Shown here piece after piece: positions 4,075-43,443 of a stretch of DNA of 64,000 nucleotides (within the stretch, counting starts at the first letter, position 1; every line of letters starts with the position of its first letter). A program made the position numbers and the translations under genes. Below the pieces are notes generated by a model. That model saw nothing but the letters and a program-made list of their open reading frames with translations. It did no database searches and had not been told where the DNA came from. The stretch is taken from positions 22,517 to 86,516 of the forward strand of contig NW_026251825.1 of assembly GCF_025024155.1 (NCBI RefSeq). The letters run 5' to 3'. The DNA comes from Gamsiella multidivaricata (lineage: Eukaryota; Mortierellomycota; Mortierellomycetes; Mortierellales; Mortierellaceae).

Positions 4075-6563
4075 ATGGTCTTTGTCAATGGCCAAAAGTT
4101 TGCTTGGTATGTGACCAATCTTATCTCCCAACGTTGTAAAGTGTTATTGCCTGTCTGCAAGGCGTGACACCCAATACTAAGATAACTAAGATAACGTTTG
4201 TCATCGTTCGCCTTCCTGACCACAGTGCAACCTGCATCAAGGGCCATCGCTCCACGACATGCAACCATGGGTAATGTCAACACAGCCATTTGTTTGTCAT
4301 CAGAACACATAACACGAATATAATGTTTTATCGCGGCACATGTGTGTTGCTCACCGAAACTCATTTATTAACTTGTATATCGAGCTAATAGAGAACGGCC
4401 ATTGCACGAAATCAAGAAGAAGGGCCGTCCATCCACGCAATGCCTTCACTGTAAAGAGTTGCGTAAGGCCAAGCAAGTGAGCGTCCGTTGCATTTGTGGC
4501 AAGGAGGAAGGTACAGAAGTGGACAAATATCTTTTCTGGCGCACATCCAAGGCATTATACTGATATGCTGTTGACCGACCATATTATGATCTTTCTTTTA
4601 TCCCACAATGCAATGCAATGGTCTTTATTTAGGGCCCTCAGTGTTGGCCAATGGACTGAAGCGCACCAAGTCCCTTTCGCAAGATGGACGTGCCCTCGCC
4701 CCTGCAGATCTTGGCGGCGAGGATATTCTGCGCTCTCTTTCGACTGAAGACGTTAGAACAATGGAATCGGCTGAGAATGTCTCATCAAGTGGAGGTAGGA
4801 ATTCATCGACCATATGCATATATTGGCTACAGATCCACTCCTTAACCCATTGACTACATCTGGGAATATCTATCTAGACGTTTATTCATGCGGATGTCTC
4901 GAGGGCGCTGTCTGCACTTGCTGCCGTGATCGTTCGGGACACGTTGTCACGAAACCAAACAAAATCTCGTCTTCGGCACAGCATGCGGTGTTCAAGAACT
5001 ATGCGCTTAAACATCAACGCGGAGCTGCTTCGCTCGACCTTGGCAAGCCCGGTGTACAGCTCTATCCACGAGATGCTTCCCCCTTAGCTCTTTCTCCACA
5101 GGTGCGAGGCATACGGGCGGTGCAGAGTCCCAATGGAAGCGTGAGCTCTGACTCGAGTCTCGGTATCAATGGGACATTTAGCGACATGGGTATATCAAGC
5201 AATGGATCATCGTCGCAGTATGCGCATGTGCTCAACTCAGGATCCTCAGGAGCTGATTATTCGCCCTTAAGCAACCAGCAGAGTCTGATGCAGTCCCAGT
5301 TGTGCTTCGACAATGCGACCTCATCGGACTATGACAGCGACCAGTACAACCCTCCAGGCTCATATCCGTTTTTTCCACAAAGTGTGCCTACGTACGCTGT
5401 GAGTAACGCATCGGACGACCTTGGTGAACGAGACCCTACCTTATTCCAGGACACATCAGCGAAGCGGCCTACGCCCATGAATACCCTATCGTCTGAGGAT
5501 GTGGGGTCACTCTACAGTGCCATGTCCAATTTCACTACAGCTTCTCCGCCCATGCCAATGCAGCCTAATACAGAAACGGCTATATCTTCAACATCGACTG
5601 CCAAAAAATCGTGCTGCAAACCAGCGGACAGTACTTCCTCGCCGGCATCCTCGATCCCGTCCCAATCTCCCTGTGATCGACAAGGCGATGAAGCTCACGA
5701 CGAGGTGGAGATGGCCGGTTGTGGCTGTGCCGTTTCTGCCAGCATGTGCTGTTGCGGAGAGCTTTGCGCCTGTCCTGGATGTCTTGCCTACCCGAACAAC
5801 CAAAATATTCTCCAGTCGGCGTTCCCACCAGAAATGTTCCCCAGCTCTGGACTTGGCAACAACAATGGAAATGCGGTCAACATCAGTACTCCCAATAGCA
5901 ATGACGATATGACCCAGGCATCTGCGATGGACACCGTCCCCAAAAAGGGATCTTGCTGCGGTTCCAGTAAGATCAACGCCATCAACTCAGCTAACATGGA
6001 GATTCCCTCTGACCAGACCGCTAATAATGGCGCTTCAGCCCTTAACTTGAGTCAAGCATTGAGTCTCATCGAGGCAAGCAGTCAGAGTGCGTCGACCATG
6101 ATTGACAACGATGCCCGACAGGCCCTGCGGCAGGGATTGAGTATGATGGGCCAGGCGGGCATGGAGTCCGTCAAGTTACAGCATCCAACTTTGCTTGGCG
6201 ACAACGGCATCTTGATTTGCGGCTGTGGTTGCGGACGTCCTACGGTCGATTGTGCAGACTGCTTTCGGGACATGTGTGAGTTTGTCGGCGAATCTCAGGC
6301 GAGGATGATGAAGGAGGAACTCGAGTATGAGATGGCCATGAACCGGGAAGGTGGATATTTGGCGGACCTGGGACTCAATATGAACATGTCCATGGCCATG
6401 AATATGAGCCTGAACATGAATATGGATATGATCATGGACATGAATATGGACCTGAACGATATCGGGATGAACCAAGACAATCCACAGGTTAATGACCTTG
6501 GACTTACTTCGAACTCGGAGATACAGGGCTCCACGGACGAGTCGTCGACATTCGGTCAAGACC

Positions 6564-6600
<37 letters not shown>

Positions 6601-6760
6601 GGAACAGCAACTACAGCAGCACCAACGACAGCAATTCCAACAGCTGCAAGTACAACCACAGCAAACACAATCACACTCTTCGTTGAACCTACCTCAATAC
6701 CAAGACCAATTCTTAGATCAACATCAAGAAAATCAGGGCTACAATAATCAACATCAGGGG

Positions 6761-6795
<35 letters not shown>

Positions 6796-7003
6796 TCAGC
6801 AACATAATCGTGCACTCTTGGAACAAGAACAGCGCTTGAGACTACAGCTGATGGAACAAGAACAGATGCAGCTTTCTCAACTGCAGCCTTCCGCTCTGAG
6901 CCAGCTCCAACTGGATTTTCTGGATGACGAGGACTGGAGCTTTGTGGACGAGATCAGGATTGATGTCCCTGGTCCTAAATTGACAGCAGATCGCAAGGCA
7001 TGA
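4075..7003 (+). CDS. Copper-fist transcription factor (Cuf1/Ace1/Mac1 family), five exons
   Basis: Copper-sensing DNA-binding regulator. The model join(4075..4106, 4226..4270, 4392..4510, 4633..4794, 4878..7003) gives 827 aa. The N-terminal copper fist is complete: C11-x2-C14-x8-C23-x-H25 zinc ligands, the KGRPSTQC minor-groove motif at 36-43, then C46 and C59-x-C61. Downstream are several Cys clusters (CGCLEGAVCTCC, CGCAVSASMCCCGELCACPGC, CGCGCGRPTVDCADC), which resemble the copper-binding clusters of Cuf1/Mac1. There is also a Met-rich stretch of alternating Met near 6376-6450. The C-terminal third is Gln-rich, with two poly-Gln tracts, and ends acidic. Whether it activates copper uptake or detoxification cannot be told from the sequence. 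Confidence 0.93.
6564..6603 (+). repeat. (CAA)n microsatellite encoding poly-Gln
   Basis: About 13 nearly pure CAA codons lie in frame in the copper-fist gene. A second, CAG-rich poly-Gln tract lies at about 6760-6800. Both fall in the presumed activation region and are likely length-polymorphic. Confidence 0.9.
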
Positions 7004-7520
7004 CCCCTCTCGCCTCTTGCGGAAGATCGACTCACTTTGCATTCGGCATCATAACGATATACCTACAATCTTCATAGAATAAAACTGTTTTAGCATTCAC
7101 ATCGACGTTTGTTATCTACTTCATAACAATGTTTTCGTAACGGAATCATTTGCATTCCACCCTCTATATGACAGCCATAGACCTCGTTAACATTTGAACA
7201 ACAAAAGGCGGCCTTACAACAACAGTAATAGTGAGACTGAATGGAATGCACAATGACTGCGCACGGTATGCAAAACTGAGACAATTTCATCCTCGCACAA
7301 AGTGCAAAGACCAGGGTCCACCTGCATGCACCCCTCCATACATATTCAATCATTCAATCTACTTTGTCGTAAAGAAATGCTTTATTGAATCTAAACGTGG
7401 TCAATGATTGTTCACCAACGCTGGATCATTATAGCACAACGAGAGTGGAGTGGAAGTATAGTCGCATCAAGTAACGACGCCATTCGAAATAAAGGAAGTG
7501 GGCAGTCTATGGAATTTCCT
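7004..7520. other. Convergent 3' region between copper-fist and COX9-like genes
   Basis: Contains the two 3' UTRs, with an AATAAA at about 7078-7083 serving the plus-strand gene. Nothing else is recognised. Confidence 0.5.
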
Positions 7521-8012: not shown

Positions 8013-8214
8013 TTTGAAAGTACTTGTCGTGTGCGTGTGTATTGTTGATGAACAAGAGGGGATGCGGGAGTAGGTCAGCGTCTTATTTTGGTTTCTGAGG
8101 TACGAAGTCATTTGCATCTACGATAAAAGCGTCTACCCATGCGCAAATTTCGACGCCAGTCCCCCCATTTATTCAAACCTCCCCTGTTCCATTGATCACA
8201 ATTCCGCGACTCGA

Positions 8215-11069
8215 GTCGATACACTTGGGTCTTTTTATGTCACCGTTCGCTACGCTTATTCCGCGCACTCTATGAATGATGCTCACCGTATTGTCGAGCG
8301 AGAAATACTGAAGATTGGGGCCCAGACGAATTTGGTTCATTACCTGGACGGCATTCCTTCGGGAAAAAAGGACTCACCCAAGTGCACCAAGAGAACCTTC
8401 TCAGGAAAGCTGTTGAACGCGCCGACAAATGTCTGCATGGCTCAAGGTTGGCGTGGGTAAAAAGCTCCGCGTGCGGAAACACCAGTTCATCGACATCAGA
8501 AAACATTTGAGCTCGACCTTTTATTGTTCCCTAGACGCTCGACGGGCCTTTGCCGTATACATGCGCAAGAAACAATGGGCGATCGTCGAGTGCTCGACCG
8601 AGGCAGGTCTCGCGATAGGCCATAAATGCAAGCCTAGCGACATCGTCGTATCAAGAGACAGTGACATACTCATGTACAAGAATGTCGAGACCATTTGGCA
8701 ACCCATCTCAAAAGGGAAACTCCTTGTCTACGACGTTCCAAGCGTCTAATACACAGTACTTAGCGTCGTATCATAAACGACTACAACCGCAACATCCCCT
8801 CTCTCGGAAGCGCAACCGACTACAAAATCATCAAAGAGCTGGATGGAGAAGTTAAACAGATCAATTAGTTCATCGTGTATATCACTGATGCAGAAACGTA
8901 TTATCAATTCTAAAATCTCGGCATTTTTTATTTTTTTCTGGCTTGCAGACGCTGCGACGATGATGAAGTATTATTTAGCACACAACCAAGCCATGCGTAA
9001 GAATACCGCCCAGGAGACGCTTGCCACTTCGCAGAAGGTTTCTGTGGGTATTTTACAGACCCCTGTGCAGATTGGCCCATTCCCTTCGTTCCCAGCTCAA
9101 GCTGCCATGGCCTATGACAGTCTTCGAAAGCAGCTCGATTGTCTTTTTCAGTGGTACTCCCAAATGCAGAAGGAGATACGAGAGGCACGCGAGGCGGAGA
9201 GAAGGTATACAACGTCAAACACTGCCTTGCTTTGTAAGAATTTCCACTTGCATGAAGGCATGCATGAAATTAACTCTAGTTTATTGTGATTGCTATCAAC
9301 TTTGAGAACTTTGACAGCGAATCATGATACTAAGACTCGGTGACACAAGTCTTCGCAGACTTTCAACAGGTATCGCACGGTCGATCACCTTGCTTCACGC
9401 CAGGCAGAGGCTGCAAGTGAGGTGAACCCTGCCCAGCCTCGTACCAAATCCCCGCAACACCTACCGCGATATTCTACCAGACAGCGCACTCAACTCAGGG
9501 AGCATGAGCTGCCTGAAGCAATGAAGCAGTACACATAGAAGGCATAGATGAAAGTACCCGAGAGCCCCTTAGATCCCGACGCTGGCTCTTTCAAGAAGAA
9601 GGGGGGAGCAAAGAAGAAGAAAAGAAAAAGATTGTGCCAAAGCCAGTAAGCGTCTCGACAGGAAAGACTGACATGGTTCGAACTATGGATTGGGAACATC
9701 CGACAGTGAACCTCGATGTTGGAACCGTTTCTACTAATCTGAAGCGAGCTTTGGGAGAATCGGAATTGGTACCCGAAATCAAGAAGTGTCTCCGGGATGT
9801 CGTTCGGGTTGCATCTGACACAAAGCTGCAGGGCAGCGACTCATCGGGCGGTTGATTGAGAGTCTCTTTGCTCACGCGAGCCTGATGCAATAGACAGAGA
9901 TATACTGCAACATCTGTCCATATGTCTCATTCAAGATCAATGTCAGGGGGAGAGGTCGATGCGGATGATCATGATGAACAGGAGCAAGAGGAAGAGGAGG
10001 AGGAGGGAAGGGGGGGTAGACGAGGGTGATGATGACTCAGTGCGCAAGGACTTAGACCACCTGCGCTTCCATACTGTGCTGCTTCAGCATCTCTACACAG
10101 GCGATCCCATCATCACGACGAATGTATTTGGTAAGCGCGTCCAGCAGTTGTCGACCGAGCAGCGGATCTCGGTAATGAAGCAGAAAGCTGTATCCCAGCC
10201 CACGTTCAAGCACAGAAGATGGATGGGAAGCAAAAAAAACATTGTATCAGACGGCGGAATAGAATCCATCAGCAACATTGAAACTAAGCTGCCACCACTG
10301 CGCGGTGAGGGCGGCAGCTTTGCGAGCTATGTTACGGAGCTGGAGAGAGTAGAGGGAAAGCTGACAACGGCAACAACTGGTTCAAGAAGCATAAGTGGGA
10401 CGCGAGAAGGGCCAGGGATGCGGAGTACAGACTCATAACGGATCGCCTACTCAAATTGGTCGGAGGTCGATCGGCAGAAGAAGAGAGGAAGCCAATAAGG
10501 TTGCGATTGGGGTTGGTCTGGGCAAGTTTTCGACCAAGACGACTTTCCTCTTTGCACAAGTCCTTTCAGTCGTACTTTGTTCAGAAGGCAAGAGCACCAT
10601 CATTTGAGAATCGAAGCTATGTAAAATCGTATTATGTTTTTCTTGACTTTGACTTTATCACAATTTCCTTTAGGCCAGATCCCTAGGCTACACCGTAGGT
10701 GGAATGAATGAGTACTATGGTTCGAAGAAGTGCCCGACGTGCGAGAAGCTTGTCGGATAGGTCGAGATCCGCAGGCTATACTGCTCAACCTGCGGCACTT
10801 TCATGCACCGTCATATTATGGCAGGGCACAACATTTGCAACGTCGTTCGCAGCCATTTACTCCATCAACAGCGGCCGCTTGATCTCCGGCCAGTATATAA
10901 GGACGGGCACTATCCTTGGATGCAAGATGCAAGGCCGCATACAGAGGCCGGGGGTAGCAGCTGTAGTAGCGCAGTGGGGCGAGTGCAAGGGCAACCACGA
11001 GCTGGAGGACGCAAGCAAGCAGTCTTATCCTTGAAAGGGATGGAAACCCCTGGCGCCAAGCGACTATAG
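8215..11069 (+). pseudogene. Degenerate Rad2/XPG-like nuclease plus Fanzor/TnpB-like fusion gene
   Basis: Protein-like segments follow one another on the plus strand in shifting frames. Segment 8215-8460 contains RVDTLGSFYVTVRYAYSAHS. Segment 8432-8746 contains an XPG-I-like block (STEAGLAIG, SRDSDILMY). Segments at 8775-8868 (INDYNRNIPSLGSATDY), 8950-9210, 9609-9852 and 9959-10436 follow. Segments 10380-10587 and 10674-11069 end in a TnpB/Fanzor-type RuvC and zinc-ribbon block: MNEYYGSKKCPTC, YCSTCGTFMHRHIMAGHNI, then SHLLHQQRPL. An in-frame TAG (10758-10760) and several frameshifts break it. The third RuvC Asp, normally in HRD, reads His (10812-10814). I associate this order with a large multicopy Mortierella-type protein family (memory, not searched). 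Most of the middle, including RuvC-I, appears deleted near 10060-10160. Confidence 0.72.
10588..10673 (+). other. Intron-like 86-bp segment in the pseudogene, GC donor
   Basis: The coding sense passes from FVQK (ending 10587) to ARSLGYTVGG (starting 10674) across a segment that begins GCAAGA and ends CTTTAG. This would be a second GC-AG intron in the window. It may instead be a short insertion in a dead gene. Confidence 0.4.
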
Positions 11070-11289
11070 ACTATGTAGATATACGTGTACCAGCAAGCTC
11101 AGATGTAGCAAGGATGCGTCCTGTGACGTATTTGAGCCTCAATTGTTCTGTTCTCTCGGGGTTACAACTGTATGCTTCTTGACAGTGGGGGTTTATTATT
11201 ATTATTATTGCCGTAAGTGTGTATGTACGCATGTGTAAGTATGTGCGTCCCAGGAACAATGTGAAGAGCCTGGTACAGGAGCCAAGTTT
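11070..11289. other. Short gap after the pseudogene
   Basis: Contains an (ATT)n run at about 11193-11209. No gene is seen, and no clear terminal inverted repeat matching the left end of the relic could be found by eye. Confidence 0.4.
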
Positions 11290-16739: not shown

Positions 16740-18832
16740 GGTATTTTTTCTTTCTTCCTCCAAGTAGATGCGTATTCAAGAGTGGAGTGAACGGTGCGGA
16801 ATGAGAAGAGCGAAGGAGGGAATCTGAATGTGCACAGAATGAATGTCATTCGAGGCCTGGATGACCATCTGTGCACACAAATTTCCATCAAAGTTGACCG
16901 AGCCGATTGCCTCGCGTGCAACTTACCTGTTCCCAGCCCACATGCACATGTGCCACTAAATTCAGCCGAGGTTGGATTGATGAGCTCCCATTGGCCTGTA
17001 ACTCAGCACGAGATGGCGCGTCGCGTCCACACCCTGTGCTTTGTCGCGCGTACCCTAGTACAATACGTCCAAGAGCGCCATCTTCGCGTAGTATTTAGCT
17101 TCTTGAACAATCCTTCAGGACGATAGTCATGGCCACAAACACATCGTCTTTATTTATTCTCCCACTTGATCTATCCATGTTCACAGGTCCATATCAAGAC
17201 AGCTCGGTCACCCCTAAAGGCTTCAGGCCACACTTTTTCCCATGCTTATAGACAAGCGCTGCGCATTGATGTCCTTCCTTATAGATCAATTGCTATCCCC
17301 TAACCTCATGAGAGCACCAAGGTCCTTTTTTTCACGAGGGCCCATCTCCTTTCCCCTCTCAACGGAACACGCCCTCCTATTTGTGGTTGAGAAGCAATAG
17401 CGAGATCAAAAGAGAGGTATAAATGTGTGCGCTGGCGATGCTTATTGTGCCCCAAACAGTGTTTGAGAGCGGTCGATTATCGAAGTGTTCACTCTTGAAA
17501 TGATGTACGCGTTCGAGGTACATCTTGAGACAATTAAGACAACATGTACAAACAAGAGAAGGATGTGCGATAATGAATGAACCATACCAGGCTAAGCAAG
17601 GTGGCTGAGCTGTAGCTGCTAGCTAGACTTGCTCTAGATCATATAAGCTGGTTTTCTTCCACATACAGCTGAATAATGCGCTTCATTCTGCTCCTGCCTC
17701 TTCCAGGACAAATACGATTTGGGTAGACATGATGTGCTCGTCCATGCTCTGCTTTGGTTCTCAGGAGCAAACGCACTATGTCCTTATTGGGTGTATTCGG
17801 CCGACTTGATCTTGCTGCGTCCCCAATCTGCATCTTTTTATGCTTTTACTCTCCTTGTTTCTTTCCTGGTTTGATCCTTGGCTTCCACCTCCCAATTCCG
17901 ATCTTTTGTTCCAGACAAGAAGATATAGAAAGAGCTTCTTATTCAGACTCTCTTTTTCATCTTTGCTCCCCTCCTTCGCACTCATCAGAAGAAACAGGAA
18001 TACGCTTCTCAGATTCTGGCACTACGATTGTATACCTTTCACCGCTCTCTTTACTCTCCACCTCACATCCTGCACCTGCTTGCGTCTAGATCCCTATCAT
18101 ATCCTTCAGTCTAACGATCTTGAGAGACCCTACGATCGTCAATTTGTGCATCTTTCGATTGTCGTATCTGATTTCGTCTGTAAAGTATGTGCCCGGCACA
18201 AATCAATTCTCCTCGATCATTTGCGGAGTGTTGCGTCCAGCTATTCAGTCGGCATGTGCGACATGGTTCACATGCGTTATTGCTTTCACGTCTGCCCATA
18301 CATCTTGCGTGGTCTTTCTACCCACCATCTGAAACTACAGCGCTTCTTATGCTCCACTCCGTCAAGGATGGACGAAGCAGTGAAGCTCATTCCTGCCTTG
18401 GCTCAGCAAATGCCAATGATTATAATGAATGTGATGAATACGTCGATAAGTTCTGGTTAAAAAAAGACTTCAAGCTCGCTCCATTCTTCCTTCAATGAGT
18501 CGCTCAATGACTATTTTGCTCGTGCGCAAGTGTGAGCTGGCTTTTTTAACACTCTGTTCTGACTGGCATCTTTAGAGAGATCAAAGTCCTTTACTCGTAA
18601 CTCCGGCCATTCCAGGGCATGACAATTATTGTCAGGACTTTTTAGAAAAATTAACCTTGCATTGGAAGCTACGTCTGAACACCCCCTTATCTTGAAGCAC
18701 ACACACCAGGCTTCTTCCTTTCTGGCCCCTCGATTGCCAGGAGTGCTTCTATTTGTCTCCATCTTGCGCCTTACAGCTATTACTGAGCGACCAACTCTCC
18801 AGTCTCTTCTGCGTATCCAGCCCAGCTCCTTC
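16740..18832. other. Divergent promoter region and long leader of the PKA gene
   Basis: 2.1 kb between the acyl-CoA dehydrogenase start (16739, minus) and the PKA start (18833, plus). The part 17760-18832 is CT-rich and contains several short frames that would act as upstream ORFs if transcribed. The frame containing the PKA start is open from 18629, but only through a TTG. No separate gene is supported. Confidence 0.45.
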
Positions 18833-21459
18833 ATGAACACATTACCATACCAAGGCATCCAAGGGCAGTCAAAGTCCAATCCAAACAAGAGTGATACATC
18901 TCCCTCAAGTCAAAAGCAGCAGCAAGCGCCCTGGCCAAAGACTGTCTCATCGAGAAAGCTCTCGACCTCGCGACCCACTTCACCTTATCCTAGAAAAGAG
19001 AATCATTACCAGAATATGCTATCCTTCTATCCCTCCCCATCTCTCTTCATTCGAGATATTCCCGGTCTGAATCCTTCGTCCTCCGTGTCAGCATCTAGTG
19101 CTTCATCTCCTGGAATTCCCAACCTCGAGCAGCAATCACGGTATCCTCATGCTCAAGGGCCTTTGTCAGCGGACCATCTGAGCGAGGGCGCGAAAACGAA
19201 GGCTGCATTCCTGGCCGAGGGACAGTATGTGTCTAGAATTAGAATTCGCTCGGAAGACGGCCAGCAGTTCCATCTCAAAGATCAGCGCTCCACGACCGGC
19301 TCGCTTCACCGTCCGCCGTCTTCTGCACCTAAATCGTTAGATTCATCAGCAAGAGAGTCGCCGGCTACTCCTTTCCCTATTATACATGGCGCGGCAAATA
19401 ACACTGTGATGAATGTTACACCAAAAGTCGAGGACTTGTACTTTACCGCCATGATATCAGGATCCATTAACCTCGATGTTTCATCGCATGCATACAATAT
19501 CCATGGAAACCCGGCAAGCACTGGAGGGAGTAACAAGTCAAAGACATCGCCCTTACCATCACCTGTAAGTTGCCCTACATTCCAGTATCCTGGGCGTGGA
19601 TATAAGCTCCCTTCAGAGGCACATCACTGGGATAAACGCCAGCACTCTCAGCAGCATTACCCATCGTTAAATACCACAAAGGACAGTTTGAAGTATGACA
19701 ACCATTATCGGCAGCACCAACCCTTGTTTTACGCGTCGAAGAGTCAACGACAGGAGGAGCACATGTTTAATGGCCACACACCCTACCAGCAAGCAAACAT
19801 TCCGCATCATTTAGCAGGTAATCAGCTCCATAGAATCTATGGTCAGGATCCCTCCGCGAACCATCAGCAACCATATCATTCCTCGCAGTCGTCGTATGGC
19901 CACCAATATCATCATCACCAATCATTACAGCAACAGGGTAGCCATCACTGCCACCAACGATTTCAACATTCTCAATCTTTGCAACAATACCCATTTAGCC
20001 ATAATAGCTACCAGAATGGGAGCGCGAGTAGCAGCGCACATTTGCACTCTGGAGCATCCTCCTCTCAGCCATTTCAGTTTGAGCAAAAGCATTTTAATTT
20101 CAAGACACAGGAGCTCATCGCTGTCAAGCCAAGGCCGTTCCAGCTATCCGATTTCACCATAAATCGGACAATCGGTACTGGATCCTGTGGAAGGGTGCAT
20201 CTAGTCCAATCTGTGTTCAACTCTCGTTTCTACGCGCTCAAGGTGCTCAAGAAGTGTCAAATCGTGAAGTCGAACCAAGTGGAACACGTCAACGAAGAGA
20301 AGCGAATATTGGAGCGGATCCGGCACCCATTCTTGGTAAAGACATGGGGGACGTTCCAAGATCATGCCAATCTGTACATTGTGATGGACTATGTAGTTGG
20401 AGGAGAGCTGTTCAGTGTCTTGAGACGCATGCAGGTAAAGACCAACCAGCAATTGATCATATTGAGGATGTTTTGACCAGCCTGAAGAAAGTACCCATCC
20501 GACTCACAGTACGTACCTCAACATAATAGCGCTTCTCGGACTCTGTAAGCAAATTCTATGCCTGTCAAGTTCTGCTGGCTCTGGAATATCTCCATGGGAA
20601 CAACATTATATATCGCGATCTCAAACCGGAAAACATCCTCATTGACGCGCAAGGCAACATCAAGATCACCGACTTTGGATTTGCCAAACACTTGGCCGAT
20701 AATGAGACCGCATGGACCTTTTGTGGAACGCCCGATTATCTTGCGCCGGAGGTAATCAAGTCCAAGGGCTACGGCAAGGCTGCGGACTGGTGGTCATTTG
20801 GAATTTTTATTTTTGAGATGCTAGCGGGCTATCCGCCCTTCTATGATGACGACCTGTTTAAGATGTGTAAGAAGATTGTCGATGGTGAGATGCGGTACCC
20901 GAAATACTTTGATAGTTTGGCCAAGGACCTGCTGAAGCGACTGTTGGTGTCGGATCTGACTAAGCGATATGGCAATCTGAGAGACGGCTGTCACGATATT
21001 CGAAACCATGCTTGGTTTGCGGGCGTGAACTGGACTATGGTCCTTAGAAGAGAGATTGCAGCGCCGTTTGTGCCTGATGTCAAGTGGGACGGCGATGCCA
21101 GCTGTAAGTGTATACATTCGCATGCACCTCTTCTTGTGTTTTAATTGATGGGAATGAGCTATTACTCACTATGCTATCGCGTCTTATTTCTGTGTATGTA
21201 TGTGTGTGTGTGTGTGTGTGTATGTGTGTGTGTTTGTGTGTGTGCGTGTTTTTTCTTCTTTCATCGATCTCTAGGCTTCGGGTTCTACCCAGAGGAAGAT
21301 GAAGAGGAGATCGCGGCTCAGGTCGAACACAGCAAGGATGAGTCCTTAGATAGTTCTCCGATATCAGCCAGTTCTTCGACTTTCAGTCCGTCTCTCAAAG
21401 TTGGAGCAGCAGACGAAGATATGGCGATGGACTATGGAGATATGTTCCCAGACTTTTGA
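18833..21459 (+). CDS. pkaC: cAMP-dependent protein kinase catalytic subunit, three exons
   Basis: Serine/threonine kinase released from the regulatory subunit by cAMP. The model join(18833..20434, 20530..21103, 21275..21459) gives 786 aa. Residues 1-440 are a disordered, His/Gln/Ser-rich extension unusual in length for PKA. The kinase domain starts at about 441: Gly loop GTGSCGRV, Lys470 in YALKVLKK, Asp564 in [13 protein letters not shown] at 582-584, activation-loop Thr597 in [14 protein letters not shown], and [16 protein letters not shown]. The AGC tail ends exactly in FPDF, a terminal FxxF hydrophobic motif. The usual Phe of the Gly loop (GTGSFGRV) is Cys here. The start is the first in-frame ATG. 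Confidence 0.96.
21191..21250 (+). repeat. (TG)n microsatellite in a PKA intron
   Basis: An imperfect TG dinucleotide run occupies much of the last intron (21104-21274) of the PKA gene. It forms part of the pyrimidine-poor middle, before a T/C-rich acceptor region. Confidence 0.9.
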
Positions 21460-22773: not shown

Positions 22774-23987
22774 CCCCGCTTCCTCATTCCTATCTTTATC
22801 TCTATCTCCATCTCCTCCATCTCCATCTTTATCTCTTACCCAGTTTCGTCCTCCCCTTTGCTCCTTCGTCGATCCCCCTTACACGCTACCGCTACTCAAA
22901 CTAGCTACTTCTTATCCCAGCAGCCGCGTCCACCGTCGTCGCTCAAATTCTCTTGCTCCCCACTCACATAGCCCGCTTCCCCACATTCTGTTCCCTCAGG
23001 ACCTCCTGCCGGGTTCCGTAACTGCCATACTTTTTGTGGGACGAGTCACTCTCAGCGTTTGCTCTGTCTCTCGTTCTACCAATCGTACTTTTCTTAATCC
23101 TTGAGCCCCTGACTGCACAGTAAGTATCGGTCCTTTCTACCGCGGCAGCTTGTTCTCTACTACCTATATTCATCCACATGGAATCATTGATCGAGAACTA
23201 TGGCGCGCTCTACGTCGACTTTGTCTTTGAGCCCTTCCAGTCATCAACCCCACTCTAGTGCTGCCCATGCGTTCCCTAAAAACAACCTCACTATCGTGCC
23301 CACCCTTGCTCCTTCGCCCTCTGGTCCGTGGTTTATTTATTTGTGCACCTCAATCCAGCCCCTCTTCGGCACATACCTCGCTCGTACATTCGCCTAACTT
23401 TACACTCAAACAAATGTTTGTTTGACAAACCATATCGTTGTATCTCTGATGTTTGACTATTGTCCCTGTGCTCCGGTCGAGGCATGGGACCCATGTGGCG
23501 CGATACCCCACTTCACCTCTCCATCTTTTCTCACACACCCAAGCATACCTTGTCCAAAGCCGATCGCCGTACACGTATGCAGTTGATACAGTGGAAATTC
23601 CAGCACGTTTGCCTTTTACCCGACAGATAATAAAGGGTATCGAACGGCTTTTGCTGTGGTGCACCAGTAGAACTCTGCTTTATCTTTTCCTTTTCCATCC
23701 ATGTAGCTCTTGGACCTCCCTTTACCAAACCTTGCTTTATCATATTTCCTCGTAGTGCATCCGCCCCACATTCTAATCACCCTTCTATCAGCCCTTCATA
23801 CCATTGTCCCCAGCTGCACGTCTGCACGGAAGCACATAGTCCATAATCTAATCCGCAGGAAACTGCCGTCAGCCCATTTCCTTCTCCTCTGCGTTTTTGC
23901 CCGCGCCCTAAGAAGCGCCAGCGAGCTCGACGCCACCCAAGGCCTTGCCCTTGACAAACGTGTTAGCATTAGCACCCACCCTATAAT
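21460..23987. other. PKA 3' flank and long leader of the homeodomain gene
   Basis: 2.5 kb with no supported gene. The right half (about 22700-23960) is strongly CT-rich with a 32-base T run and has the look of a long 5' leader or promoter. Several short frames read as Leu/Ser/Pro-rich strings produced by the CT bias. Confidence 0.45.
22742..22773 (+). repeat. Poly-T run (32 T)
   Basis: An uninterrupted homopolymer in the CT-rich region upstream of the homeodomain gene. It may act as a nucleosome-excluding poly(dA:dT) promoter element. Confidence 0.95.
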
Positions 23988-26900
23988 ATGGCAGAATCCA
24001 TGGGCATCGATCTTCAGTCCCCGCGGGGAGAACTCCGAACTGCATTCTACAACCCTCATGAGGTCAAGCGACGCCGACGAACGTCCAGGAGTCAGTTCAA
24101 GACCCTCGAAAAAGCTTTTACCGAGAACCCAAAGCCCGATGCAAGCACCCGCAGACACCTTGCACAGAGGCTTTCCATGAGCCCCAGAGGAATCCAGGTT
24201 TGGTTTCAAAACAGAAGAGCCAAGAGCAAGCAGGCGAATGCCACACCGACCGTCACGACTAATGGCCAGAGCAACATACCCTGTGTTATTACCTTTAATC
24301 GAGATCAATTACACAAACATAATTTGCCTAACGGCGCATTGACGGGTGTTGGTCGACTGGAGCCGCAAGTTGAGAGTGAGCTTTTCAAAAACAAGACACA
24401 AAACACAGATGGTAAACTGCACACGAGTATAAACACCCCTACTCAACAAACTACCTTTACGAACGGCACCACAAGTTCTGGAATGCCCTGCGCAGGGTCC
24501 ACCATCACGTTCTTGTTGCCCTCGGCGCAGCTACCATCCAAAATGGACTCAAGACAATTCCAAAGCATATCACATCATAGCACATTTAGCTCCCAACGAG
24601 GTTGGGATGATCACTTGCATGCCTCGTCGCTCGGTACGCAGGGTCAGGCATCATCAGCGTACATCGGACAACATCCTCTGGAGTTGCAACAATCTAATTA
24701 TGCTGAAGACGTAGCAAAGGGGCCTCTTGATTCCAATAAGATGGTTTCCGCCATACCGTCCACCGAGTCCAGTATCAGTTCTTCTGTCGAGACCACAGAG
24801 CTGGTCCAAGGTACCGTTGGGATGAAGGGGATTCGAACATATTTGTAATTCAGAAATAAAAAATATATATATATATATGCTAACTTCAATCTAACTGCCC
24901 TTGGTTAGGTGGCTCGCAGATGCCACTCAATAATTGCGCGGAAATGAATAACCGCCGTCCATCGACCTTGAGTTTGATGCGCCGAATGTCTATGCCAGCC
25001 AGCATTAGTAGCAGCGATACAATTGGCGCGATTATGTGGAGTGCCCAAGGCCCTAGCTCTTCCATGGAAGACGTTCAGCGCTCGCTTCACCACACTGCCC
25101 AGAACCCACCCGACTTTGCGATGCAAGCACCGGCTCTTCATCCACTTGAATTTGAGACTACAGCTCTGAGCAGGCCTTTATCAACGCATGGCCCAACTCA
25201 GCCGTCATTTGAGCACAGCGGGAGTATTATGGACGCACGGACACGGATCCAATCGTACCCATTGTCTCGTAGAGTGTCAATTCATGAAACGGGAAGCTAT
25301 CTGACACAGCGTGGATTGAAGCTGAAGGGTGTGGTCGGGCATGATTCGCAAAGCACGCATTCATCTGAGGGCGGGTCCCGGATTGCTGCTGCTGCTGCTG
25401 CCCGCAGGCGGAGAAGAAGCAGTGTCGGCAAGCTGGCCAATATCGCCACCAACTCGTCAACAACCGCCACTACCGATACCGATAGTACAGAGGACGTGTT
25501 ATTAGCTGGAACGGTCTCAAGTACTTTTCTCGCTCCGTCCTCATCATCCAACCTACTGGCTTTCGCAATTCCGGCTCCAATATCAAAAATGAATGCGATG
25601 ACCAGCACTAGCAATACTTCATCAGGCATGCAGTTTGCATTAGGATACGCCAATGACAGCACAATGGATATTTGGATGGAGGACAGAAGCGATCAAAGGG
25701 CCGTCACTACGCCGCATTCTTTACATACCAGTAGTCCTGGTTCAATAGTAGAAGGATCTACAGCCGGCGCCATATCCATAAATGTATTAGGAATCTGTCC
25801 ACCTTCGGGGCAGGCGAAAACTACTGCAAGCAGCACACAGCACTCAGGATTGTTAATCGACGCAGGGCCTATCATCACAACCCTGCCTCAAGGAAGAACT
25901 GAAGTGCCCAAAGATGTCAAGAAGGAACGCAGGCGATCCTCTCTTAAAACTGTCAAAACGAGATCCCAGTCAGGGGCACGCGTTCAGTTTGACCTACAGC
26001 AACCATCATCCGAGCTACTGTATCCTTTCCCAGCTGCAAATGGCGGAGAAAACTCTACGCATCCACAGCAGCATCTAGATGATAACAACAAATCTGGACA
26101 GTCCCACTCATGGCTGGATGAAACGCTACTGGGGATTCCTCTGAACAAAGGCAAGCAGATGAACTTGCTAGATGCTTCGGTGGCGACTAGTACAGCGGCA
26201 ACCTCAACCAAGGCACCAGCATTCCAACAATTGCCTATTAGTTATGTGCAGGCGCCTCAGCTACATAGCTCTCCAGAGCCAGACGACAACGATTTTAATT
26301 CGTATTTAGCGGTCCTTCAAGCCTCAGACACGTCGCTGGGTCACACTACTCCAGTCGTGGATCAGGCCTCCCAGGAGCTACAGCATATCCGACGCAACTC
26401 ATGTCCACCGGGGTTCATAGAAAGTTTCAACAGGGATCTGCATATTGTAGCGGATCCTTCGAACTCAACCAGCAGTCAAGCATCAACGCCAAGGGATGTT
26501 GCTGTGCTTCAGCTTCAGCAGCAACTCAGTCGACAAATTCAAGTGCACCAGCAGCGACAGGACTTTGATTGCACCCAACCTAGTCCTGTGGGACCATCCT
26601 TTTCGTCTCAACAGCAGGAGCAGACGCACAGGCAACAGCAACAGCAACAGCAGCATCTGATCTCAGCTCAAGTCTTAACTCTCAGCCCAATTCACCAGGA
26701 TCCTCTTGCAACATTTCATGGGACTCAGCAACTCATGCAGGGTGCAGCACTCAGTCAGATACACCTACAGCATCTCGGACTTCCACCTTCAGAGGAGCGT
26801 TCTTTGCTGCTCCAAGAACAGAGTCCAGAAAGTCCGATACCGTCCGATGCCAGATTTAGGGACACGAACGACGGTCTTGGGAACAATAGGGTCGACAAAG

Positions 26901-31419: not shown

Positions 31420-33370
31420 ATGAATGAAAAGAGCGCAGCTTCCCTTCTACCAATAACGGCTGAGAGCGAAGCTCATATCTCCTCTACACACAATGCTATA
31501 GAGAGACTTAGACAACTCCGTCGAGGTTTCTTCAAGCTGGGTCTCCTGGGCCTGGCCGCCTATTATCTTCTTTGCGCCCTATTTGATAATGCTGCGGACG
31601 ATGGGCGCGGCTCAAGCAACAAGCACCATCATGAAATTAGCCATGGTTCCAAGTTCCAGTTCGAAAAGCATATGCAGGTAGATATTGATCAGCTTGTAGC
31701 CGGCACTTTAGAGTCCAAGTAAGAACACTCGATCGTTAATCCTTGACAAGTACTTCGCACTGCTATCTTGGGAACACTGCTTACGCCACCAATTTTACCG
31801 ACTACCACCTTTAGTATCGTTTGGGATCGCTTGGCAGAAATGACCGACACCTATGGTCCCCGCATTGTCGGTTCTGAGACATTAGAGAAGGTGAGTTGGA
31901 AAAATTCTATTACTCGTGTGATTGCCGTCTTCTTTCAACTACGAGAGCGACTATAATCATTATCCACCGCTGTATGCCATTTTATAGTCAATTGACTGGG
32001 TGGTGGAGAAGGTAAAGGCAGATAACCTTTCTGTTACCACAGAAGAGGTGGTTGTCGATTATTGGCAACGCAACCATGAGTCACTGCACTTCCTCTCGCC
32101 AACCCGCGGTCCCGTCAAGATGCACATTCTCGGTCTCGGATATAGTGTCTCTACACCCGACCCAATCAATGGGCTTGTGGCAGAGATCGTCGTAGCACAC
32201 TCCAAGGAGGAACTCGACGAACTGGCGAAAGCTGGCAAGGTCGAGGGTAAGGTCGTCGTTTGGAACAAACCATTCTCGCAATATGACGAGGACTTCGTCT
32301 TTCGAGCATTTGGTGCCATCTGGGCGCAAGAGCACGGAGCTGTCGCATCCCTTGTTCGATCCCTAGGACCTTTCTCGCTGCAAACACCCCACACGGGGGC
32401 TGCCGATCCTGCGAACATTCCTGCAGCTTCCGTCTCTGCTGAGGATGCCGATCTCCTGCAACGCTCTTTTCAAAGACACCAACAAGATCCGGAACGATTT
32501 CCTGAATGGCCCAGGATCAGATTGGTCATGGGTGCGGCCACAGAACTTGACGCCAAGATCTCAAGAAACATCATTATCGAACTGAAGGGGCGAGATACCC
32601 CGGGGGAGGTTGTTGTCATTGGTGGACACATTGATAGCTGGGACGTCGGTAGCGGTGCCGTGGATGACGGCGCTGGGTGCTTTATCGCCTGGGAAACACT
32701 GCGTCAACTAAGCCGACTGGAGAGGCCCCCGCGCAGGACAGTGAGAGTGGTATTCTGGACTTCGGAGGAGAATACTGCTGCTGGGGCCGAGGTTTATGCC
32801 GAAAACCATCCCGAGAGCGACTCGAACCGCCATGTCTTTGCATTCGAGTCGGATATTGGCGTGTTTGATGCTTATGGAATCGCGTTCACTCCTGGACGTC
32901 GCAACGAGGGTCTGAATGAACTGACGGGCTTCAACTCTTTTAAGTACCTGGCGGCTGCCGGGAAACATTTCATGGGCGCTCGTAAGGACCTAGGATATCC
33001 TGGGGCAGGGCAGTACGTTCTTCCGGATGGCGAAGGCGAGGATATCAATCCCCTGTGCAACCGCGGTGTTGCCTGTGCTCAGTTCACCCCCGCCGACCCA
33101 TTCCCTCTTCCCTATTCAACGTCCCCATACGCTGTCCCAAGCATGACTGAAGGACATCGCCATCACAAGCACCACCGGCACCATCGGCATCATGGCGGTG
33201 ATAACAAAGATGTCAATCCACCGCGCCGCCCTTTGGACTCTGGTTACTTCTACTACCACCACACAGAGGCAGACACTATGGGGGCGTTTACGCCTGAACA
33301 ACTGAAGCGCTCTGCAGCTGTTATGGCTATCTGGACATACATCGTAGCGGAGAGCACGGTCGATCTATAG
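31420..33370 (+). CDS. Membrane-anchored M28 zinc peptidase, carboxypeptidase Q-like
   Basis: Zinc exopeptidase probably acting in the secretory or vacuolar lumen. The model join(31420..31718, 31815..31890, 31988..33370) gives 585 aa; an in-frame ATG at 31411 is an alternative start. A hydrophobic helix near residues 35-55 (LGLLGLAAYYLLCALF) after a basic stretch predicts a type II membrane anchor. Di-zinc ligands are visible: H339-x-D341 in GGHIDSWDVG, D351, catalytic E385 and ligand E386 in WTSEENTAAG, D414 in FESDIG, and the final His549/550 in YYHHTEADTM. A His/Arg-rich insertion (about 514-528) sits just before that last ligand. Human CPQ is secreted and lacks the anchor. Confidence 0.92.
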
Positions 33371-42604: not shown

Positions 42605-43443
42605 ACCCTAAAATAGATCGCACAATCGTACAATTTTCTTGAGAGTAAAACGTGTGCCCCAACTTAACGATATCTGTCGTACATATCATGAACCTTTTGT
42701 GCGATATTTCGAGCTTATCCAGCTCTTGGGTCGCAGTTTTCAGGTCCGGCGCTCCAATCACGCATTAAGGGTGCGTAACCCAGAATAACCTCCCTTTGGA
42801 TGATGAAAACAAAAAAGCCACTGGCAGGCACCTTTTGGCAGCGCCGAGGTGATGCGACAGGCTGTTGCATCAAAGTGTGGAAACAATACTCTCTCCAATC
42901 ACTCCTCTCTTTCCTCCGGGAATTGACACACAATTACTCCTCTGACATAGGCGCAGGCTCGAGGTCAGACCAACGCCGCATCATCGACAGAAGGATATTG
43001 AGCTCTGTAGGTTGACTTCAGCTGTGGCCGTTATAACTCCTTAAGAACGTGCCCCTGGCCTTGAGGAATGCCCTTCTAATCGCGTTTTTGGTCTTTATGC
43101 CCTTCTCAGACCCACCTCAGGGCAGTCAAGCACCTCACCCTGTATTGGTTGACTTCTATCTGCTAAGACGAACAATGAAGTTATAAGCCTGATCAGAACC
43201 AGCGATTCCCTCCAGTCAACTCACCATATTATTTGGGACACTCGTGAACTGTTGGAGGTGAGTGCCTTGAGTCCATATCGAGACACGCTCCAGGATACGG
43301 GCCAAAGACATTGAGTAACAACGGTTAATATTTCTCTTCTACTATACCGTCTTTTTCATATAGGCCGGTTTACGTCGATCCAATATATTTTCAGCCAACG
43401 ACTTGGCGCTCTCCACTAGGACACCAGATCCTGCGTCATCTGG
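42605..43443. other. Intergenic region before the PPR gene
   Basis: 839 bp without a recognisable gene, repeat or RNA. It is less CT-biased than other leaders in the window. Confidence 0.5.

Follow-up and report, generated by a model that had tools for sequence, protein, structure and literature searches.

The window analyzed here, a 64,000-nucleotide stretch of the genome of Gamsiella multidivaricata, carries between position 8149 and about 11156 a dead, collinear relic in which XPG-like pieces are followed by a linker and then by TnpB/Fanzor-like pieces. We interpret this relic, with about even confidence in the explanation taken as a whole, as a dead copy of a gene carried as cargo by fungal DNA transposons of the Mutator-like (MULE) type. 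Its components were recognized with profiles built from 17-20 relatives and are listed below.

8149 to 11156, plus strand: whole relic of the XPG-Fanzor-like gene with the right end of its element; DNA homology to copy L035 from 8149
8188 to 8382, plus strand: XPG/FEN1-like N-region piece, profile positions 27-91 (E 9.7e-15)
8447 to 8746, plus strand: XPG I-region piece containing STEAG and SRDSDIL, profile positions 114-213 (E 1.9e-38)
8776 to 8850, plus strand: XPG helix-3-turn-helix piece with NDY, profile positions 233-257, in a different frame (E 2.5e-7)
8948 to 9202, plus strand: first linker piece, past the place of intron 1 (E 1.6e-10)
9344 to 9535, plus strand: second linker piece, past the place of intron 2 (E 1.9e-11)
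9655 to 9831, plus strand: Fanzor-like N-terminal piece, profile positions 4-63 (E 6.7e-14)
10175 to 10381, plus strand: Fanzor-like piece directly after a deletion, profile positions 525-593 (domain E 1.8e-21)
10372 to 10596, plus strand: Fanzor-like piece, frame shifted, profile positions 595-670 (domain E 4.3e-21)
10674 to 10754, plus strand: first part of the TNB exon, containing the alternative Glu, NEYYGSKKCPTC (E 3.5e-11; PF07282 34.3 bits)
10761 to 11030, plus strand: remainder of the TNB domain (YCSTC, HRHIMAGHNI) and tail (E 3.6e-25)
11080 to 11156, plus strand: decayed remnant of the right end, TGACGTA motif at 11124 (placed by motif spacing)

All the relic pieces matched in this search are collinear on the plus strand, the five Fanzor-like pieces having E values of 6.7e-14, 9.1e-25, 3.5e-21, 3.5e-11 and 3.6e-25, while an eleventh match (E 6.8e-6) lies in a different frame and overlaps one of these. 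Chance motifs are ruled out by the same search, in which no match outside the relic was better than E 0.066 in the window, or than E 1.1 with the segments reversed; the piece at 8447-8746 also gave a genome match at E 6.9e-31. Pfam models alone performed unevenly, with XPG_I at E 0.15 for 8474-8746 and TNB (PF07282) at 34.3 bits versus a cut-off of 26.3 for 10674-10835 (C21:33190-33351), and it is the profiles built from relatives that make the identification decisive. The preliminary description had quoted an XPG-I-like block and a TnpB-type C-terminus, both of which are found where it placed them; its limits of 8215 and 11069 do enclose relic sequence but are too narrow, since the homology starts near 8149, takes in the linker (about 8948-9535) and ends near 11156, a border set by the 33-nt motif spacing of the relatives. 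Neither the transposase nor the left terminus, that is, the left half of the element, was found in the window by tblastn with transposase pieces at E 0.01.

The relic is indeed dead, as had been claimed. The profile matches imply at least four frame changes beyond the expected introns, stops are present at 8747-8749 (TAA) and 10758-10760 (TAG), and a deletion has removed positions 157-525 of the Fanzor profile, RuvC-I included. In the XPG part TEAD has become TEAG, with DSD and NDY kept; Glu alone is left of the RuvC triad (NEYYGSKKC), the catalytic Asp being lost in HRHIMAGHNI. We rejected the reading of every internal TAG mark as a nonsense mutation, since family B seems to use its TAG as an intron acceptor. 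The TAG at 10758 in the window is a genuine stop.

Near-full relatives of about 1,100-1,360 amino acids are predicted to combine an N-terminal 5' nuclease of the FEN1/XPG/Rad2 type, a linker and a C-terminal RuvC-TNB nuclease of the TnpB/Fanzor type, and the active-site motifs of the two parts are retained in 19-27 of 29 such proteins. A pattern search of these 29 found the carboxylate motifs of the XPG part, which we take to be equivalents of FEN1 residues, in 27 (LYxDG-type), 21 (TE[AS][DE]), 26 (DSD-type) and 27 (NDY-type) proteins. The family XPG profile matched the structures of RAD2 (E 3.2e-7), an XPG-FEN1 chimera (E 2e-6) and FEN1 (E 0.002). Judged by profile and carboxylate motifs, the XPG part is of the Rad2/XPG/FEN1 type, with which it shares the MGL.. 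N-terminal start, the LYxDG, TEAD, DSD and NDY motifs and the H3TH region. Unlike those nucleases, however, it is short and diverged, multicopy and fused to a TnpB-type nuclease, and many members lie under the Pfam cut-off: XPG_I exceeds it in P0006, P0016, P0056, P0064 and the L017 exon, falls below it in P0001, P0005, P0017 and the L020 model, is absent from P0002 and P0018 in the Pfam scan and reaches E 0.01 in just 9 of the 21 members of A1.

The C-terminal part had been proposed to be a TnpB/Fanzor-type nuclease, and sequence comparison bears this out. PF07282 is above its curated cut-off in six of eight proteins, the remaining two (P0016 and P0020) stopping before TNB, and is found at E 0.01 in 18/21; the NCBI guided_TnpB model matches four proteins at E 8e-10 to 6e-8, under the full-protein cut-off of that model. 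The CxxC and RD motifs (C4 zinc finger and RuvC-III Asp) are present in 23/29 near-full proteins, and the alternative Glu, six residues ahead of the zinc finger, in 19/29 by the strict pattern NE[YF][YF]xSx[KR]CxxC or 23/29 by a relaxed one. Alignment to bacterial TnpB is confident in the C-terminal part only, where the alternative Glu is aligned with the bacterial Glu. The 30 PDB sequence matches included no Fanzor. With Fanzor RNA-guided endonucleases such as SpuFz1, as described in Saito 2023 (PMC10432273) and Yoon 2023 (PMC10711439), the family has in common the alternative Glu, the C4 finger, the RuvC-III Asp and carriage by transposons, as well as, in most copies, a right end predicted to be structured. 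The RuvC-I motif differs: among the 23 proteins having it, it reads DLG in 11, DGG in 7, DAG and DPG in 2 each and DMG in 1, whereas DPG is, according to Yoon 2023, near exclusive in Fanzors; the second nuclease on the same chain is another difference. Consequently, the label Fanzor given in the preliminary description fits several features but not this near-universal motif, and we call the part Fanzor-like, filing it neither as Fanzor1 nor as Fanzor2. The TnpB of IS200/605 and IS607 elements shares the TNB domain and the guided_TnpB model with the fusion family, and the Moraxella TnpB (L065) also the alternative Glu and DLG, but these proteins are bacterial, about 370 residues long, without an XPG part and accompanied by another transposase.

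On present sequence evidence the fusion of the two parts is genuine and the product of one gene, in agreement with the earlier proposal of a single polypeptide. Just upstream of a TNB domain lie 59 of the 106 XPG-like loci of the genome, compared with 3.4 expected and a maximum of 10 in 500 shuffles (places from one genome search without overlap to the other were picked by eye); TNB places number 109 in all. The multicopy relatives in Mortierella-type genomes mentioned in the preliminary description are confirmed. Both parts occur in one predicted protein in 70 of 116 database relatives, the named organisms being Mortierellomycotina by name and the locus-tag prefixes of the fused relatives suggesting several annotation projects. 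It might be argued that two adjacent genes have been merged by gene predictors, because some 3 kb of genomic DNA, introns included, separates the parts (2.5-3.5 kb in 45/59 pairs), the other 46 of the 116 database proteins have the Fanzor-like part alone and all relatives are predictions. However, many of the Fanzor-only matches are either named partial or are short, 40 of the 43 relatives of 1100-1500 amino acids are fused, and the linker is conserved and spliced in frame. The best-read copy of the gene has five exons, and the introns between the two parts are conserved, frame-preserving and GT-AG, with splice dinucleotides kept at 8/8 positions in L018 and L024 and at 7/8 in L026, the last one not being alignable. 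Moreover, purifying selection acted on the XPG, linker and Fanzor-like parts, for which omega between families is 0.09-0.38 where dS is unsaturated (0.24, 0.17 and 0.19, respectively, for L018-L020). These conserved introns and this selection argue for one gene, and we regard the merging of two genes as scarcely credible. At the sequence level, neither of the two observations that the preliminary description had named as refuting it was made: better-preserved homologues are not separate neighbouring genes, and the C-terminus does match TnpB-type models.

Trees of the XPG part and of the Fanzor-like part are correlated (Mantel r 0.72, 0/2000), but 7/13 well-supported XPG splits disagree with a Fanzor-part split. 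An XPG match was present in 13 of 20 fetched copies. Within families omega is 0.39-1.10, with one value of 2.2, and the copies read in the genome, a subset of all copies, include none shown to be fully intact (L020, for example, has two stops and a frameshift). Database annotations reveal the fusion as stray domain names only (XPG-I domain-containing, Cas12f1-like TNB domain-containing), and no paper describing it was found in the literature searched.

By their sequence features the elements are of the MULE type, with short terminal inverted repeats (TIRs), 9-bp target-site duplications (TSDs) and a divergent transposase-like gene. The copy ends showed TIRs (in C93 and C122), a right-end hairpin in most families and TSDs of 9 bp in seven of ten copies, perfect in four and agreeing at 8/9 positions in three more, two of the seven being read by eye; the other three copies have none. 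The neighbouring gene, oriented divergently from the cargo gene, contains FAR1-like (E 0.01, L026) and SWIM-like (E 0.004, L031) stretches, both below cut-off, and transposase pieces were found in 17/25 loci, four of which are the sources of the queries. The MULE transposase model PF10551 was unmatched in the pieces scanned, and its eight genome matches are all outside L017-L041. One PF10551 match, at C132:240519 on the plus strand, has the left end of a family-B copy 1.9 kb away.

Two other types of element were considered and rejected. LINE-like 5'-truncation was suggested by copies with common 3' ends only, and was discarded because L029 and L031 regain left-side homology, thus representing internal deletions, and because TSDs exist. 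Right termini in TC or CG and a terminal hairpin would fit a Helitron, against which the 9-bp TSDs and the TIRs speak. Bao and Jurka (2013, PMC3627910) reported Fanzor1 proteins from the MuDr-type elements ROr-4, PBl-3 and MCi-4 of Rhizopus, Phycomyces and Mucor. As far as the sections of that paper on these elements go, they have in common with ours the TnpB-type C-terminus, C4 finger and RD, as well as TIRs, 9-bp TSDs and hosts among early-diverging fungi; in contrast, they encode no MuDR transposase, whereas a divergent transposase-like gene is present here, and their description there mentions no XPG, whereas here an XPG-type nuclease precedes the TnpB-type part in the same protein.

These borders also bear on whether the protein has been domesticated by the host, as a defence or repair gene, rather than being a tool of the transposon. 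Past selection on both parts and the 13 member sequences of the Mortierella alpina cluster P0056 would suit such a role, but the number of TNB places in one genome, the TIR and TSD borders, the occurrence of a single right end in near-identical form (94-100%) at 14 places and the within-family omega values are what one sees in a mobile element that decays copy by copy once inserted. We therefore consider domestication very improbable and retain the interpretation of a transposon cargo gene.

The right ends have a further property. A hairpin with z of at most -2 is predicted in 17 of 21 right ends, compared with z values of -0.37 to +0.75 for three left ends on both strands and of -0.92 to +1.29 for six interior controls; it fails in two of three family-D and both family-E right ends, is not significant in the window (11080-11156, z -0.85), and borderline cases cross -2 between runs (L040, -1.90 and -2.06; L028, -2.02 and -1.95). 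Rfam at gathering thresholds returned nothing on L020, L030, L035 and L040, and a MAFFT alignment of right ends across families left the stems unaligned. A GGTGACGTA-type motif is situated 33 nt inside the right end in families B to E (14 copies) and 31 nt in family A (5 copies). For families F and G, with a single copy each, and for the window, the TC-end and spacing rule itself was used to locate the right terminus, so these cases lend no independent support to the 33-nt spacing. The left-flank motif (TACGTCACC-type) is the reverse complement of this right-end motif. In family B, ACGTCA occupies -18 to -13 in 11/12 left flanks, 3 nt 5' of the TSD, and is found in 0/6 right flanks (background 1.5e-4 per position), while the left flanks of families A and D resemble it loosely only. 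The right-terminal hairpin and, in one young family, the fixed left-side ACGTCA are new here; they look like the geometry of a TAM plus guide RNA, the alternative being target choice by the transposase.

That alternative belongs to a reading in which the fusion is real but its TnpB/Fanzor-type part, instead of being an RNA-guided cutter, would act as an accessory factor for excision or gap-repair intermediates, with hairpin and motif serving the transposase. The reverse complementarity of the TACGTCACC-type and GGTGACGTA-type motifs is what would be expected if one DNA-binding protein read both, and the elements encode a FAR1-like stretch, albeit below cut-off; in addition, IS200/605 elements use terminal hairpins for their transposition (PMC3627910) and RuvC-I departs from the DPG of Fanzors. 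Conversely, most near-full proteins retain the RuvC, C4-finger and alternative-Glu motifs and the part was under purifying selection, in keeping with a functional nuclease of the TnpB type; the hairpin is at the right end and at none of the three left ends examined; and the motif is left-side only, whereas from a symmetric TIR transposase one would expect a near-palindromic motif on either side. The accessory role is in our view possible, though somewhat doubtful.

The RNA-guided interpretation can be outlined as follows. An RNA from the right end, with flanking DNA, would guide the TnpB-type part to the identical site in a chromosome without the element, either just excised or unoccupied, beside ACGTCA as TAM. 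The XPG-type part might then trim the edge of the R-loop, a flap or the break end (XPG is reported to cut the 3' flank of R-loops; PMC7286691, in part), and the trimmed end would let repair copy the element back. In this way the element would home or be retained, a single polypeptide performing both cutting steps, in line with the earlier suggestion of an element that may supply its own cutting and repair activities. The full explanation, namely a dead MULE cargo gene for one two-nuclease protein serving RNA-guided homing or retention, appears to us finely balanced. It is possible, though less likely than not, that these elements constitute a self-contained eukaryotic homing machine, in which the MULE cargo protein joins a guide-RNA-directed RuvC nuclease to a Rad2/XPG nuclease attacking R-loop edges or resecting the break, guided by the right-end hairpin RNA and limited to GACGTCA/TACGTCA-type sites. 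If so, the motif carried reverse-complemented in the right end would tie together insertion site, TAM and self-recognition.

TnpB, Fanzor and Cas12 proteins are generally known as single nucleases that rely on host repair. If the interpretation is correct, the family would represent a natural two-nuclease RNA-guided effector joining a TnpB-type nuclease to a flap or R-loop nuclease, with a bearing on the spread of such elements among eukaryotes and on editing tools for which resected or gapped ends are required. With the fixed motif in the left flank and the hairpin at the right end, the RNA-guided hypothesis could be put to a direct test in fungi, Mortierella alpina among them.

The coding segments that the preliminary description reported in the window are indeed present, and belong to a relic copy of a gene joining an XPG/Rad2/FEN1-like nuclease, a linker and a Fanzor-like (TnpB-type) part. 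Taken alone, the XPG part of this copy is weak (Pfam XPG_I, E 0.15), and its TNB domain (PF07282) lies above the Pfam cut-off with 34.3 bits. Re-scanning the window with XPG, linker and Fanzor-like profiles made from 17-20 relatives gave ten plus-strand pieces at 8188-11030, collinear with these profiles (E 2.5e-7 to 1.9e-38). Outside these pieces no match in the window was better than E 0.066, and reversed segments reached E 1.1 at best. The copy is dead, since it has at least four frame changes besides the expected introns (by our reading of the frames), stops at 8747-8749 and 10758-10760, and no counterpart of Fanzor-like profile positions 157-525, RuvC-I among them. A search of the window for the element's transposase at E 0.01 found nothing.

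Features of the window
4799-7003: 734-aa frame with cysteine-rich CxC clusters and polyglutamine/NM repeats, without Pfam match at E 0.001; gives the impression of a metal-responsive regulator
About 8149-11156, plus strand: relic copy of the fusion gene
18623-20473: protein kinase gene, ordinary-looking
23973-24845: homeodomain protein gene, ordinary-looking
31988-33367: M28 peptidase gene, ordinary-looking
43420-48210: PPR protein gene, ordinary-looking
57298-59832: open frame whose match to a Crb2-type Tudor is weak (E 7.4e-4, under cut-off); product possibly a DNA-damage checkpoint protein

When compared with known structures, the N-terminus of the family profile matches RAD2 (3.2e-7), an XPG-FEN1 chimera (2e-6), XPG (5e-6) and FEN1 (0.002), and its C-terminus matches the LaTranC structure (0.0012); no Fanzor structure is among the 30 structure matches. 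Four proteins match the NCBIfam models guided_TnpB (8e-10 to 6e-8) and fen_arch (3.6e-7 to 0.1), and three of them also rad2 (7e-7 to 0.017), all under the full-protein cut-off. Alignment with bacterial TnpB by hhalign has a probability of 95.3% over 61 columns, which span the alternative Glu, the zinc finger and the RD motif, and a trimmed run reached 214 columns (96.2%) with RuvC-I lacking confident alignment. The fusion family shares with Fanzors, in the arrangement given by Yoon 2023 (PMC10711439), an alternative Glu six residues ahead of the finger, but DPG at RuvC-I, described in the same source as near exclusive in Fanzors, is present in only 2 of 23 fusion-family proteins. Because of this combination we use the term Fanzor-like for the C-terminal part.

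Three protein searches, of which the first two scored only candidates sharing most words, returned 116 relatives. All but two of these have an organism name, and the names comprise ten genera that we place in Mortierellomycotina; Gryganskiella, Benniella and Haplosporangium were looked up, and the others we take to belong there. Against profiles built from a set of relatives, 70 proteins match in both parts, 46 in the Fanzor-like part only and none in XPG only, the last count being biased because proteins shorter than ~713 aa were beyond the reach of the XPG search. Both parts are found in 40 of the 43 relatives of 1100-1500 aa, and among 29 near-full-length relatives the XPG motifs are conserved in 21-27 and those of RuvC and the zinc finger in 19-23. 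Trees of the two parts, constructed with 27 proteins (partial ones included), are in overall agreement (Mantel r 0.72, 0/2000 permutations); 7 of 13 well-supported XPG splits contradict the Fanzor-part tree, which leaves room for possible exchange of parts between elements.

The source assembly of the window (37.5 Mb, 180 contigs) has TNB matches at 109 places (E 0.001) and nine XPG_I matches, four of them strong and presumed to be repair genes of the host itself; each of the five weak ones lies ~3 kb upstream of a same-strand TNB match. With pieces of one copy as queries, XPG was matched in 13 of the 20 TNB copies retrieved together with their flanks. Two XPG exons used as genome queries recover, besides many others, the copy in the window (E 2.4e-22 and 6.9e-31). 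By these exon searches, which miss decayed parts, 59 of 106 clustered XPG loci have a same-strand TNB within 8 kb downstream, at a spacing of 2.5-3.5 kb in 45 pairs; random placement gave a mean of 3.4 pairs and a maximum of 10 (500 trials). The remaining 47 loci comprise 40 without TNB match nearby and seven with TNB otherwise arranged. At one locus, L027, an open, very diverged XPG exon (6684-7457, minus strand; 25% identity) with a two-residue insertion before the DSD motif precedes the TNB by several kb, and the Fanzor-like part of this locus is near the window copy (74% DNA identity); it is an older branch of the fusion family.

In the copy L020, which itself has two stops and one frameshift, five exons are joined by four GT-AG introns (101, 97, 70 and 90 nt), introns 1 and 2 separating XPG from the Fanzor-like part with the frame kept. 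The splice dinucleotides are conserved 8/8 in L024 and likewise in L018, a diverged copy (~69% DNA identity), and 7/8 in L026, where the eighth is not alignable. Between families (right-end groups of copies), omega values by Nei-Gojobori, obtained only where dS is unsaturated, are 0.09-0.38 for XPG, 0.15-0.33 for the linker and 0.12-0.21 for the Fanzor-like part, most pairs being synonymously saturated and giving no ratio; all three parts have thus been under selection at the protein level. For L017-L030, a diverged pair inside family A, the values are 0.25 and 0.36. Comparisons inside each of the other families yield an omega of 0.39-1.10 (one value of 2.2 comes from very few changes): copies decay once inserted. 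The XPG and Fanzor-like parts almost certainly constitute one single-protein fusion.

Comparison of copies yielded sharp right ends in five families, A to E, and two complete elements were bounded on contigs C93 (7,551 bp, TSD CCGACGTTG) and C122 (7,740 bp, TSD GCTTGGATG). Further family-B TSDs are GACCGACCA at L041 and AGCGCTTGT at the other C93 copy (L040/L048), and TSDs matching at 8/9 positions flank three more copies (C109, L023 and the C159 copy), those of L040/L048 and the C159 copy being read by us from sequence comparisons; C145, C134 and C101 have none. The TIRs are short and imperfect. A broken gene adjoins the fusion gene on the opposite strand, showing a FAR1-like stretch (E 0.01) and a SWIM-like stretch (E 0.004) in two different copies, and pieces of it are present in 17 of 25 fetched loci, four of the 17 being query sources. 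Together, TSDs, TIRs and the FAR1-/SWIM-like gene point to a Mutator-like element, despite the MULE transposase model itself having no match in these pieces. Bao and Jurka 2013 (PMC3627910) describe three fungi in which Fanzor1 resides in MuDr-type elements that have 9-bp TSDs. We consider it highly probable that the fusion gene is MULE-type cargo. As separate observations, a MULE-domain match (PF10551) lies at C132:240519-240782 of the same genome (G000), plus strand, 1.9 kb away from the left end of a family-B copy (L057), and a young ~3-kb repeat with 163-bp inverted ends and copies 99.6% identical, seen at 2408-5435 of L041 and 1-1204 of L017 (oriented coordinates), appears to be nested beside or inside fusion-gene elements.

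The last 75 nt of the right ends have a folding z of at most -2 in 17 of 21 cases, borderline values crossing -2 from run to run; the four above it come from family D (two ends, +0.47 and -0.39) and family E (both ends, -1.95 and -1.34). Folding is unremarkable in three left ends on both strands (z -0.37 to +0.75) and in six interior stretches (-0.92 to +1.29). Stem sequences differ from family to family, and the last paired base lies within 0-1 nt of the terminus in families A, B, C, L020 of D, and F, a single copy. A TGACGT-like motif (pattern TG[AG]C[GC]T) is located exactly 33 nt from the right end in 14/14 copies of families B to E and 31 nt from it in 5/5 family-A copies. Right-end sequences of families B and D without close TNB match (G000 C32:72446-72586 and C159:464503-464612) are possible solo right ends, perhaps resembling what a figure legend of PMC10432273 calls standalone 'ghost' loci.

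At the opposite end, ACGTCA occupies exactly positions -18 to -13 in 11 of the 12 family-B left ends that have flank available (L050-L057, L048, L023 and L041), 3 nt 5' of the 9-bp TSD; it is followed by C in eight of the 11 and preceded by TG or CG in seven and by T in four. Its background in the window is 1.5e-4 per position, and it is found in 0/6 right flanks within 60 nt. Two family-A left flanks have GTCA alone in common; family-D flanks have TTACGTCACC in one case and TTACGTATGCG in another, with no such motif at two more (L060, L061). Sequence resembling TTACGTCA adjoins L058, a truncated left end, and damaged ends of families D and E, all excluded from the count. Truncated left ends at L058, L062 and the C134 copy, adjoining TTAATTACGTCA- or ATTACGTCA-type sequence, could be junctions from imprecise cutting or repair near the motif.

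TnpB-type RNA-guided systems have their target-adjacent motif (TAM) on the 5' side of the target, next to the left end, and take the guide from the right flank. The left-flank motif and the right end of the present elements show the same geometry. An alternative reading of the motif is a target preference of the transposase, with which the presence of the reverse complement (GGTGACGTA-like) 33 nt inside the right terminus also agrees; the TAM and the transposase readings are compatible with each other. On balance, we lean towards the fusion system being RNA-guided. XPG is described as cleaving a 3' R-loop flank (PMC7286691). More tentatively, and with some doubt on our part, the XPG part may work at the guided cut: the fusion would then deliver an R-loop- and flap-cutting nuclease to that cut, and the resulting ends would favour copying the element back.
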